This document shows positions 1 through 3,553 of a DNA stretch of 64,000 nt, piece after piece. Under the pieces are notes generated by a model. That model did no database searches and had not been told where the DNA came from. It worked only from the letters and a program-made list of their open reading frames with translations. The DNA is taken from contig NZ_QGKL01000012.1 of NCBI RefSeq assembly GCF_003172895.1, forward strand, positions 1 to 64,000, written 5' to 3'. The stretch is from Leucothrix arctica (lineage in GTDB: Bacteria; Pseudomonadota; Gammaproteobacteria; Thiotrichales; Thiotrichaceae). Position numbers and translations under genes: made by a program. Positions within the stretch are counted from its first letter, which is position 1, and every line of letters begins with the position of its first letter.

Positions 1-199
1 GTTGTCTGACGGTTCAAACGGGAAGAAAGTCAGCAGATGTTGTGATATATTTAAACGAATAGGCTTACTATGAGACTGAATTGGACGACGAGTCTGGTCG
101 TTTAATGGGCCAAAATAGATAAGTCATTTAAGGCGAGGTGAGACCATGAAAAGCAATCCCCTTAATAATAAGGTGTGGGACTCCGTAGTACGCGGTTTT

Positions 200-261
200 G
201 CTCAACCAGACATTTATCCCCAGTGCTGCCGCACTCGGTATAAAATGCTTTAACGTTAGGC
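200..261 (+). other. attC-like site upstream of cassette 1
   Basis: GCTCAAC at 200-206 and GTTAGGC at 255-261 form the outer R''/R' boxes, and the inner segments ACATTT and AAATGC are roughly complementary. The R'' box has one mismatch from perfect symmetry. The next gene starts 20 bases downstream. Confidence 0.6.
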
Positions 262-280
262 GTCAAAAATAAGGAACTCT

Positions 281-919
281 GTGACTAAAGACTATAAAAG
301 CTTTTCTTCTGTTTCAAAATCACGTTTTAGAAAAATGGCAAAAGAACTGGGATATGAACAACTCAGTGGCATTAATTATATAAAACAACGTGATGGTTGG
401 TTTGAAGGGTTTTCACTTCAAGCATCTTCATATGGTAATGATTTCTTTTACATCAATTATGGAATCTCCGTCCCTAACCTTTGGGAACCATTTGATGAGG
501 AAATCAATTTAAAGAATTTAGGATATAGTCTATCGCACAGACTTCATCATAATTCTGGCCAAGGTTTTCCAAATGGAACTAAGGTACAGATAGAAGAAAG
601 TGTTGATCTTGCCATAGAAAAATATATGGAGCAGGCTTCACCTTGGTTTAATAAAATTAACGGATTAACTGATATTACAGAAATGTATTTTAATTCAACA
701 GATTTAGAGGAAAATAAACTAGGAGAACATGATAGCTTTTTATGTTTAAAAGCGGCTAATTATGGTTTGTTTTTATTTAAGTCTGGCGACTTAGAAAATT
801 CATTAGTATGGTTAAAAGAAGCCGGCCGATTATATTCAGAAGAAGAATATCTAGAGGATTATGAGATTGATCAGAAAAATACTATAAATAATGTCATTAA
901 AGTTATTAAAAGCGCCTAA
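281..919 (+). CDS. cassette-borne hypothetical protein, DUF4304-like
   Basis: A 212-residue soluble protein with no signal peptide or membrane segment. The N-terminal half (a GY.. motif, then a Trp/Tyr-rich stretch around residues 25-70 with RDGWFEGF) resembles DUF4304 proteins, which are often found on mobile cassettes and have no assigned function. The start is GTG at 281 with AAGGA at 271-275. Its codons are much more AT-rich than those of the core genes downstream, which fits acquisition by transfer. The stop codon lies inside the next attC site. Function unknown; the family call is from memory of sequence style and is moderate. Confidence 0.6.
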   Translation: MTKDYKSFSSVSKSRFRKMAKELGYEQLSGINYIKQRDGWFEGFSLQASSYGNDFFYINYGISVPNLWEPFDEEINLKNLGYSLSHRLHHNSGQGFPNGTKVQIEESVDLAIEKYMEQASPWFNKINGLTDITEMYFNSTDLEENKLGEHDSFLCLKAANYGLFLFKSGDLENSLVWLKEAGRLYSEEEYLEDYEIDQKNTINNVIKVIKSA

Positions 920-974
920 CAAATTGCATCATCGGAACGTCGCTACGCTCCGCCCGCTGTGCAAGGCGTTATAT
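914..974 (+). other. attC site between cassettes 1 and 2
   Basis: R'' GCCTAAC (914-920) and R' GTTATAT (968-974) flank a 61-base imperfect dyad. The inner boxes TTGCA and TGCAA pair, and the centre (GGAACG ... CGCTCC) forms a further hairpin. This is the clearest attC in the window. The stop codon of the preceding gene is embedded in R''. Confidence 0.85.
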
Positions 975-989
975 GCATGGAGGTATCCA

Positions 990-1484
990 GTGATTAAAAC
1001 GGAACGTTTGGAGCTTAGAAAGTTTGCTCAGCAAGACCGTAGTGAAGTAATAAAATTACTAGGAAATGCTGATTTTATGGCGTTCTCTCCAACTGGCGCA
1101 ATGAAACATGACCAAGCAGATATGCATTTTGAAGAGCTTGTTAGTGCATTTCAAAACAAGGGCATTGGAAAGTTTTGTGTAGTGGAACGTACGACTGGCG
1201 AGCTAGTCGGTTATTGTGGGATAGAATCATTTAACTATAGAGGCGAAAGTGTAGTCGAGCTTGGATATCGGCTGAAGGTTTCAGCTCGAGGTAAAGGATA
1301 TGCATTCGAAGCAAGTTCCGCAGTTCTTTCTTTTGCCAGTCAAATTGGTTATACGAAAGTTCTTGCTTTAACTGAGCCTGAAAACATGCCTTCTCAGCAT
1401 ATACTTCTTAAACTTGGTTTCAAGCCGTGTGGTGACGGTTACTATCAAAATATGCCAGTTCAGTACTTCGAAAAATGCATATAA
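990..1484 (+). CDS. GNAT family N-acetyltransferase (cassette 2)
   Basis: A 164-residue protein of the RimJ/RimL-like branch of GNAT acetyltransferases, which move an acetyl group from acetyl-CoA to an amine. The N-terminus (IKTERLELRKF) is the usual first strand; the acetyl-CoA loop is seen at SARGKGYAFEA near residue 100, and a C-terminal LLKLGFK strand closes the fold. I chose GTG at 990 because GGAGG lies six bases upstream at 979-983; an upstream in-frame ATG at 891 would put the start inside the previous gene and the attC. The substrate cannot be told. GNAT genes are common integron cargo, some giving drug resistance, but nothing here points to an aminoglycoside enzyme. Confidence 0.85.
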   Translation: MIKTERLELRKFAQQDRSEVIKLLGNADFMAFSPTGAMKHDQADMHFEELVSAFQNKGIGKFCVVERTTGELVGYCGIESFNYRGESVVELGYRLKVSARGKGYAFEASSAVLSFASQIGYTKVLALTEPENMPSQHILLKLGFKPCGDGYYQNMPVQYFEKCI

Positions 1485-1497
1485 CAGGGCGTTATGC
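1478..1497 (+). other. truncated attC remnant between cassettes 2 and 3
   Basis: ATATAAC (1480-1486 region) is followed after only a few bases by GGGC and GTTATGC (1491-1497). The outer R'' and R' boxes look present but the roughly 40-base central dyad is missing. Cassettes 2 and 3 may therefore now behave as one fused cassette. Confidence 0.5.
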
Positions 1498-1510
1498 CTA
1501 GGAGAATGAA

Positions 1511-2323
1511 TTGAAATCAGTTGAGTATGGGAATTCAGAAGGTAAAACTGTTATTTATTTTCATGGTGCACCCGGAGCTCCTGAAGAGTGCGCAATATTT
1601 GACAGATTTGCTAAAGAAAACAATTTAAATATAGTTTGTTATGATCGTTTTTCTATTAACTCATCGTTAAAGAACCAGGCTTATTATCAAAAGCTGGCAG
1701 ATGCCATTATAGATAAAGCTAATGGTCAGCAAGTTGATCTAATTGGTTTCTCCATTGGATGTCATGCGGCGATTGAAACTAGTCTTTATTTACAAGGTAA
1801 AATTCGTAATATTCACCTTATATCCGCGGCTGCACCACTTGATGCTGCAAGCTTTCTTGATGGCATGGCCGGAAAGATGGTATTTTTGATGGCAATGAAG
1901 CATTCAACTGCATTTACTCTGCTATCTTATTGGCAAGCTTTACTGGCTAAGTTACTTCCCAGTGTATTATTCAAAATGTTATTTGCTAGTGCAGCAGGTA
2001 AAGATAAAGAGTTATCTAAAACTTCAGCATTTATAGGCTATGCTACTCCTCTTTTAACCCATTGTTTCAATCCTAATGTGAAGGGTTATATTAGAGAAAT
2101 TAATCAATATGTGAGTCCTTGGAAAGAGTCCGTCCTCAAATGTAACGTTAATACCCATATTTGGCATGGTACTAGTGATAATTGGTCTCCTATCGATATG
2201 GCAAATTATCTTAAAGATAATATTTCAGGGCCGACAACCCTTGAGACAATGCAAGGCTTGTCGCACTATACGTGTCTATACGCGGCGGTCCCTAAAGTAT
2301 GCAATCAACTAGCCAAAGCATAA
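1511..2323 (+). CDS. alpha/beta hydrolase (cassette 3)
   Basis: A 270-residue alpha/beta hydrolase. An oxyanion-hole motif YFHGAPG lies near residue 16, the nucleophile elbow is GFSIG near residue 79, and the acid and base are plausibly in SDNWSP and GLSHY near the C-terminus. No signal peptide is seen. The start is TTG at 1511 with AGGAG about seven bases upstream; no ATG fits better. It lies directly behind the truncated attC and its stop overlaps the next attC-like site. Substrate unknown; ester or lactone hydrolysis is the family norm. Confidence 0.8.
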   Translation: MKSVEYGNSEGKTVIYFHGAPGAPEECAIFDRFAKENNLNIVCYDRFSINSSLKNQAYYQKLADAIIDKANGQQVDLIGFSIGCHAAIETSLYLQGKIRNIHLISAAAPLDAASFLDGMAGKMVFLMAMKHSTAFTLLSYWQALLAKLLPSVLFKMLFASAAGKDKELSKTSAFIGYATPLLTHCFNPNVKGYIREINQYVSPWKESVLKCNVNTHIWHGTSDNWSPIDMANYLKDNISGPTTLETMQGLSHYTCLYAAVPKVCNQLAKA

Positions 2324-2392
2324 CAAAGCGCTCAAGATAAGAAGTGGCAAGCTCTAGCGATGTTCGATATGGAGTTACCTAATGCGTTACTT
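2318..2392 (+). other. degenerate attC-like site at the array end
   Basis: GCATAAC at 2318-2324 matches R'', and GCGTTAC at 2384-2390 is a weak match to L'/R'. The inner arms pair poorly, so this may be an eroded terminal attC. It abuts, and slightly overlaps, the stop codon of lldD. Confidence 0.45.
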
Positions 2393-3553
2393 ATGAATAG
2401 TTTGCTTGGTGTTTATTAGACGTGATGATAATTCGCTTAGATTACGGCAACCCAGCTGAATCATATTGTTCCGCAGGTCTTCACTTAAGATTTCAATCGT
2501 ATGATCACCTCCCGCTTCGCCAAGCGCTGCAACCCCATATATAAAGGGTCTGCCCATTAGTACAAAGTCTGCACCTAAAGCGATGGCGCGCGCGATGTCT
2601 AATCCAGAGCGCACACCACTATCCAGCAATACACTCATTTGGTCACCAACAGCCGCTTTGATCAGCGGTAGCATGTCGATTGAAGCAGGGGCTGCATCAA
2701 ATTGTCGACCACCGTGGTTTGATACAATGACGCCATCAAGTCCTGCTTGTTGCGCTTGAATAGCCTGTTCGACGCTAAGGATGCCTTTTAGCAAAATAGG
2801 GCCATCCCACTCTTCACGAACGGCTTTTAAATAGTCCCAGTCTAAAGTGCCTGCCAGCTCCTTTGCCATGAATGCAGTCATGTTTTGGATGTCTTTGGCG
2901 TCGAGGTATTTTTCTAGTGTTCGAAAGGACGGCTCTCCATAGCGCAAAGTTGCCATTGTCCAAAACGGGCGAATGGCGGCGTGGTAGATCATTCGTAGGT
3001 CTTTTTTTGGTGGAACTGTGACACCCGCACGAGTTTGACGTTCTCGACGGCTGCCTGTAGGGACATCAGCGGTAACGATTAGCGTGGTAAAGCCAGAGTC
3101 TTTTGCGCGTTTTAACAAGTCCTGACGAAGCGCTTTGCGGTGTGGCGGGTAGAGTTGAAACCATCCCATACCATTGCTGAGTGGGCCAACAGTTTCAGGC
3201 GTTTCGGTGGCAACGGTGCTAAGGCTGTAGGGTATGCGATGTTTAGCACAGGCGCTTGCTAATATCTTTTCTGCTTCTGGCCACATTAACCCTGTAAAAC
3301 CGACGGGTGCCACGCCAAAGGGTTGGTCATATTCAACACCCAATAAGCGAGTGCGTACGTTGGGTTCAAACGAGCCTTTCATAAACTCGGGCGTCATTAA
3401 CACCTTTGAAAAAGCATCTCGGTTACGCGGTACACAGTCTTCAATACCTGTTCCACTGTCTAAGTATTCCCAGGCAAAGTGTGGAATTCGACGCTTAGCT
3501 TGGCGAGCTAAGTCAGCAATGGCAGGATACTTGATGTGTAGTGCATGGCTCAT
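2387..3553 (-). CDS. lldD: FMN-dependent L-lactate dehydrogenase family protein
   Basis: A 388-residue FMN-dependent alpha-hydroxy-acid dehydrogenase, which oxidises L-lactate (or a similar 2-hydroxy acid) and passes electrons to the respiratory chain. The active-site signature SNHGGRQ is at residues 278-284 (His280 as base, Arg283 for the carboxylate), Lys256 is in the LLKG strand, and the N-terminal AWEYLDSG motif is typical. Length equals bacterial LldD. The start ATG has AGAGGA ten bases upstream. No lactate permease or lldR neighbour is present. A mandelate- or glycolate-type substrate cannot be excluded. It is the first chromosomal gene after the cassette array and its stop codon overlaps the last attC-like site. 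Confidence 0.85.
   Translation of the reverse strand: MSHALHIKYPAIADLARQAKRRIPHFAWEYLDSGTGIEDCVPRNRDAFSKVLMTPEFMKGSFEPNVRTRLLGVEYDQPFGVAPVGFTGLMWPEAEKILASACAKHRIPYSLSTVATETPETVGPLSNGMGWFQLYPPHRKALRQDLLKRAKDSGFTTLIVTADVPTGSRRERQTRAGVTVPPKKDLRMIYHAAIRPFWTMATLRYGEPSFRTLEKYLDAKDIQNMTAFMAKELAGTLDWDYLKAVREEWDGPILLKGILSVEQAIQAQQAGLDGVIVSNHGGRQFDAAPASIDMLPLIKAAVGDQMSVLLDSGVRSGLDIARAIALGADFVLMGRPFIYGVAALGEAGGDHTIEILSEDLRNNMIQLGCRNLSELSSRLINTKQTIHK

Follow-up and report, generated by a model that had tools for sequence, protein, structure and literature searches.

A chromosomal cassette array in a Thiotrichaceae bacterium adjoins the tail of a cassette-like unit with a tyrosine recombinase and an IS91-type transposase

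At the left edge of a contig from a Thiotrichaceae bacterium, three plus-strand genes are separated by short repeats, and the initial annotation took positions 1-2392 as a whole for the end of an integron cassette array with three cargo genes. Is this locus part of an integron, and what stands upstream of its cassettes? The window analysed here, 64,000 nucleotides in full, is the left end of contig C4 and starts at the contig edge, in a genome of 4.75 Mb in 44 contigs. We find that the array reading holds for 255-2386, the distal end of the cassette array of a chromosomal integron, with intI elsewhere in the genome, and that bases 1-254 are instead the tail of an IS91-type unit.

A cassette array bordering a dehydrogenase gene

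The array and its border comprise the following features.

255-967, plus strand: cassette 1, with a DUF4304 gene at 281-919 (GTG start; PF14137, 4.4e-9); cassette start GTTAGGC, R'' GCCTAAC at 914-920
914-974, plus strand: canonical attC of cassette 1, with R'' at 914-920 and R' GTTATAT at 968-974; recognised by the attC models, its bottom strand folding as an attC
968-1490, plus strand: cassette 2, with a GNAT acetyltransferase gene at 990-1484 (GTG start; PF13302, 4.2e-26)
1479-1497, plus strand: collapsed attC, consisting of R'' ATATAAC, AGGGC and R' GTTATGC
1491-2386, plus strand: cassette 3, with an alpha/beta hydrolase gene at 1511-2323 (TTG start)
2318-2392, plus strand: remnant of the last attC; R'' GCATAAC at 2318-2324 is the exact complement of the cassette 3 start, GTTATGC at 1491-1497
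2387-3553, minus strand: convergent gene for an FMN-dependent alpha-hydroxyacid dehydrogenase (PF01070, 411.9 bits), stop codon at 2387-2389

Because Rfam gave no match in the array region, we built two attC covariance models of our own; with a hand-made attC motif scanner, real sites could not be separated from background. Model R1 was made from nine sites, none of them from the window (seven belong to other integrons, two to contig C34 of the same genome), and model R2 from 96 sites. Over 660 kb, R1 gave 115 matches; at loci containing intI these occupy the minus strand and precede the integrase gene, as expected of arrays. The initial annotation had made its integron reading depend on an attC model match, and 914-974, its one good site, is matched strongly by both models: by R1 at 31.4 bits (E = 1.6e-4 over 660 kb) and by R2 at 40.0 bits (E = 5.6e-8 for 20 kb of sequence, 1.3e-5 for the full genome).

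The other proposed sites fared differently. The one described as truncated is confirmed at 1479-1497, which the model aligns only weakly (11.4 bits, E = 0.58) and with the hairpin (about 64 positions) deleted; a Vibrio cassette whose similarity stops at 1486 fixes the left edge. From the collapse of this attC we infer that the GNAT and hydrolase genes now form one double cassette. The eroded site at 2318-2392 is supported in its R'', which is all that survives: the site has no attC model match, its 3' half is unsupported, and GTTACTT at 2386-2392 overlaps the stop codon of the neighbouring dehydrogenase gene. The supposedly fair site at 200-261 has no match to the attC model, even in an unfiltered search at E <= 10.

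In all three cassettes the start is the exact complement of the cassette's own R'' (GTTAGGC/GCCTAAC, GTTATAT/ATATAAC and GTTATGC/GCATAAC). The GNAT cassette shares 93.5% DNA identity with a cassette in a Vibrio campbellii plasmid array (NZ_CP050482), in window 962-1486 only. This similarity opens at the attC crossover and stops directly after R'', and the cassette thus has identical boundaries in another array. The V. campbellii cassette (L175:5490-5640) is likewise the last of its array and has lost its attC right after R''. As the initial annotation stated, all three genes lie on the plus strand with non-ATG starts, and the first cassette deviates in composition: at 33.7% GC, the DUF4304 cassette lies below every 712-bp stretch sampled in 4-64 kb (mean 43.4%, s.d. 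2.3, minimum 35.5).

The metabolic gene noted at the border is the dehydrogenase gene, which is the chromosomal border of the array. Dehydrogenase homologues, 72-76% identical, occur in three relatives, none with intI or an array beside them, and no cassette orthologues were found in the relatives searched. The hydrolase was absent from 59 sampled genomes of the family, and the DUF4304 protein had no relative in the genome-contig or plasmid collections searched.

The integrase gene sought beyond the left edge of the contig is on contig C44 (C44:2496-3440; TIGR02249, 429 bits), where it adjoins lysS. Its closest match is in a Cocleimonas metagenome-assembled genome, followed by others from Thiotrichaceae, which points to a Thiotrichaceae-type host. 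C4:1-126 proved identical to the ends of both C44 and C7. A direct join of C44 to C4 through these 126 bp is plausible, and is not proven because C7 ends with the same sequence. A whole-genome search with the attC model located further attCs on C34, C6, C25 and C22, and weaker ones on C38 and C29. As separate observations, an IS110/IS1111-type element apparently sits inside attC sites at two places (L141:9030-10130 on C25 and L144:5309-5578 at the end of C38), and the relatives G006 (L128), G002 (L125) and G044 (L171) carry a different integron-type integrase of 469-501 aa with an N-terminal extension, whose gene adjoins a fumarate-hydratase-like gene in G006 and G002.

That 1-2392 is ordinary chromosome with chance repeats can hardly be credited. 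Such a reading could draw on the fact that one of the four listed sites passes the attC model, but it is contradicted by the identity to the Vibrio cassette that is bounded by the sites, by the three exact start/R'' pairs, and by intI and the other attCs in the genome. Because an attC model match, Vibrio identity ending at the cassette ends, those three pairs and intI in the genome coincide, we read 255-2386 as the distal end of an array.

The window begins with the tail of a recombinase and transposase unit

The bases upstream of cassette 1 have a different origin.

1-254, plus strand: right end of the recombinase and IS91-type transposase unit, downstream of the transposase gene; not a cassette, with the rest of the unit off the contig
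200-261, plus strand: attC-like hairpin end of the unit, with R''-like GCTCAAC at 200-206; GTTAGGC at 255-261 belongs to the next cassette

An ordinary cassette attC at 200-261 was rejected, in view of the missing model match and of its position at the conserved right terminus of the unit. Window 1-267 is 99% identical to a stretch of contig C34, and the two copies diverge right after the GTTA of the cassette start, continuing into different cassettes. The congeneric genome G002 shares this right end at 78% identity over 361 bp, and Thiothrix-type genomes share it at 87% over about 110 bp. The window contains only the tail of the unit. Another copy lies upstream of the C44 intI, on the opposite strand.

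The complete unit measures about 2.4 kb and encodes a 288-aa tyrosine recombinase (PF00589) and a 372-aa IS91-type HUH/Y2 transposase with a zinc-binding domain (PF04986, 208.8 bits; PF14319, 94.9 bits). In the organism's own copies the HUH and YxxxY motifs of TnpA (HVHLHC, YLSRY) and the R/HxxR/Y motifs of the recombinase are intact. The left end reads GTTGAACTAAACCGC, next to unrelated flanks in several species. The unit starts at an R'-like core, GTTGAAC, its genes run in array orientation, and its right end contains an R'' (GCTCAAC, GTCCAAC or GTTCAAC) that is complementary, with wobble, to that start; after the right end comes the GTTRRRY of the next cassette. When the right end and GTTGAAC are joined as in a circle, they form a hairpin in nine lineages with differing stem sequences (z from -2.9 to -6.9), and the 200-261 copy forms a single hairpin. 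We make no claim of covariation because MAFFT could not align the inner stems of the unit ends. Despite the pairing of R'' with the start and the hairpin, 200-261 is not a canonical attC at the 3' end of the unit. The layout is that of a cassette, although the attC model does not recognise the end.

The unit occupies cassette junctions in many lineages

We examined where copies of the unit begin and end. The exact complementary R'' of the next cassette lies within 2.6 kb of 15 of 18 right ends, drawn from copies, not all independent, in Thiotrichaceae, Thiodictyon, Pseudoalteromonas, Vibrio, Polaromonas, Legionella and an E. coli class 1 integron. When the starts were permuted between units, the mean was 3.5 such cases, and none of 2000 trials exceeded 9. 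The exact R'' is missing in G002 (a near miss), Polaromonas and Legionella. The excess of 15 over about 3.5 indicates that the unit either behaves as a cassette or precisely targets cassette junctions.

In the class 1 integron of the E. coli antibiotic-resistance plasmid pM216_AC2, the unit lies between aac(6')-IIa and aadA4; on the left it is bounded by the crossover of the aac(6')-IIa attC, on the right by the aadA4 start. No near copy of this unit was found in the E. coli genome collection. A G^TT crossover, as in a cassette, is found at both unit ends, between an attI or attC and another cassette. The left flank of a unit copy is either the 3' half of an attC or a position next to intI: Pseudoalteromonas Bsw20308 and Thiodictyon have an annotated integron integrase close to the unit, and one T. 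unzii copy adjoins a gene for a 472-aa integron-type integrase. Downstream of the right ends in T. unzii and G030 stands the exact R'' of the next cassette, two copies on Pseudoalteromonas plasmids stop matching each other exactly where the next cassette starts, with attCs beyond, and in Vibrio the unit is upstream of arr. In 369 evenly drawn genomes of the class, the unit end was found only in the organism's own copies.

Several further left flanks resemble sequence found near integrases. Pseudoalteromonas and Vibrio plasmid units (L201, L204 and L202) are preceded by sequence like that beside the Bsw20308 intI (L210), with no intI annotated beside them. In G030 (L174:1-2070) the unit abuts sequence that, by eye only, resembles the 5' coding part of the gene for a long integron-type integrase (about 470 aa), an indication that attI and the start of the integrase gene have been lost there. 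Sequence like the spacer between intI and the unit on C44 also stands, with no adjacent intI, upstream of the organism's other unit copies (at the ends of C7, C26, C6 and C34) and of some single genes (C22:33809, C8:53018 and C19:54305). These repeats are possibly orphan attI-like sites. We held back from calling the left-flank repeats of the organism's own units proven attI sites because the comparable repeats at C22, C8 and C19 stand before genes that lack a matching attC.

How the unit could reach cassette junctions

Because its boundaries recur in many lineages and because one class 1 integron has it placed exactly between two cassettes, we consider it probable that the window contains the distal end of an array preceded by a cassette-like unit that would move as a folded single strand, by IntI or by its own enzymes. 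Host IntI might carry the unit as a cassette; otherwise, nicking by its own HUH enzyme might make single strands, which its own tyrosine recombinase would join. Either route would place the unit at attI or attC crossovers upstream of other cassettes. Against this reading we count the unrecognised end, the three of 18 right ends that have no exact R'', the dependence among some of the copies, the rhizobial relatives described below, and the fact that no circle or empty site was seen. The window's own copy, moreover, is a tail whose link to intI is unproven.

Because the attC model misses the end and rhizobial relatives exist, the mechanism could be that of a cassette moved by IntI, of an IS91-type element that targets attI and attC, or of the unit's own recombinase. 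The rhizobial relatives lie outside integrons and have an inverted repeat and a hairpin resembling these, with GATT as the core; an end of attC-like form may therefore be common to IS91 elements in general. An IS91-family transposon with GTTR target specificity might thus prefer attC and attI, perhaps as folded single strands, and reach these junctions by targeting and not through IntI, a proposal that falls somewhat short of an even chance. It accords with the HUH/Y2 transposase, with the same design outside integrons and with an end at which a hairpin borders a short target, the arrangement expected of oriIS; its junctions would look like those of a cassette moved by IntI. However, cassette structure predicts the pairing of the unit start with an R'' about 50-90 bases inside the right end, and to our knowledge such pairing is not predicted by known IS91 ends. 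The left flanks, attC 3' halves or positions beside intI, likewise speak against targeting. IS91 inserts beside GTTC or CTTG, whereas all 19 right flanks listed begin with GTTA or GTTG.

Alternatively, the unit's own tyrosine recombinase could act at the hairpin end and so move the unit alongside IntI, integron sites being simply compatible targets. We regard this as unlikely, even though the recombinase (34-61% identical) accompanies the transposase in every lineage examined and the rhizobial right junction repeats GATT, the first bases of the left end, as GTT is repeated here. The activity of the recombinase is a prediction, and its score against the intI profile, 101 bits, is far under the cut-off of 265.

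The cassette-like reading has a bolder form, towards which we are rather more sceptical than not: a self-mobilising cassette with the HUH transposase and tyrosine recombinase as cargo and an attC-like end that doubles as a transposon end. Such a cassette would make its own folded single strand and take neighbouring cassettes to places that have no intI, for which the orphan attI-like loci in its own genome, Thiothrix, Pseudoalteromonas and Vibrio are candidate destinations.

Relation to known systems

The locus resembles a sedentary chromosomal integron in its intI beside a housekeeping gene (lysS), its attC-bounded one-gene cassettes in one orientation, a cassette in common with Vibrio and attCs elsewhere in the genome. 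It differs in being short and fragmented, with one attC collapsed, the last eroded and a transposase unit before the cassettes. The unit is most readily compared with the ISShvi3 type of IS91 element, which has an upstream tyrosine recombinase paired with a zinc-binding HUH/Y2 transposase and a hairpin near the right end, and which lies adjacent to attC in one Shewanella integron (PMC9229058). In the present unit, by contrast, junctions at the GTTR of cassette starts are repeated across many lineages, and an R'' inside the unit pairs with its start, which is the arrangement of a cassette.

ISCR1 of complex class 1 integrons likewise ties an IS91-like transposase to integrons, but it sits beyond the 3' conserved segment and not between cassettes at attC crossovers (PMC6218425 and general knowledge). 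The IS1111-attC group and group IIC-attC introns share a known attC preference (cited in PMC9229058); they differ in their enzymes and in inserting inside attC, which is established for the IS1111-attC group. Unusual cassettes of the Delta-attI type also end in something other than a canonical attC, but they carry no transposase cargo and their ends are attI pieces, not hairpins (PMC12901181). The paper on pM216_AC2 (PMC5598989) mentions neither IS91 nor aadA4, and the only precedent for the unit in the open full-text literature was one sentence, on ISShvi3 (PMC9229058). Subscription papers lay outside this search, and the novelty of the unit is therefore provisional.

The movement of gene cassettes is believed to require the integron integrase. 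If our reading is true, a cassette-like unit with a transposase that makes single strands and a recombinase would give cassettes a second way to move, which could help to explain cassette clusters that have no intI. Such a unit precedes arr in Vibrio and separates two resistance cassettes in a class 1 integron of clinical origin.
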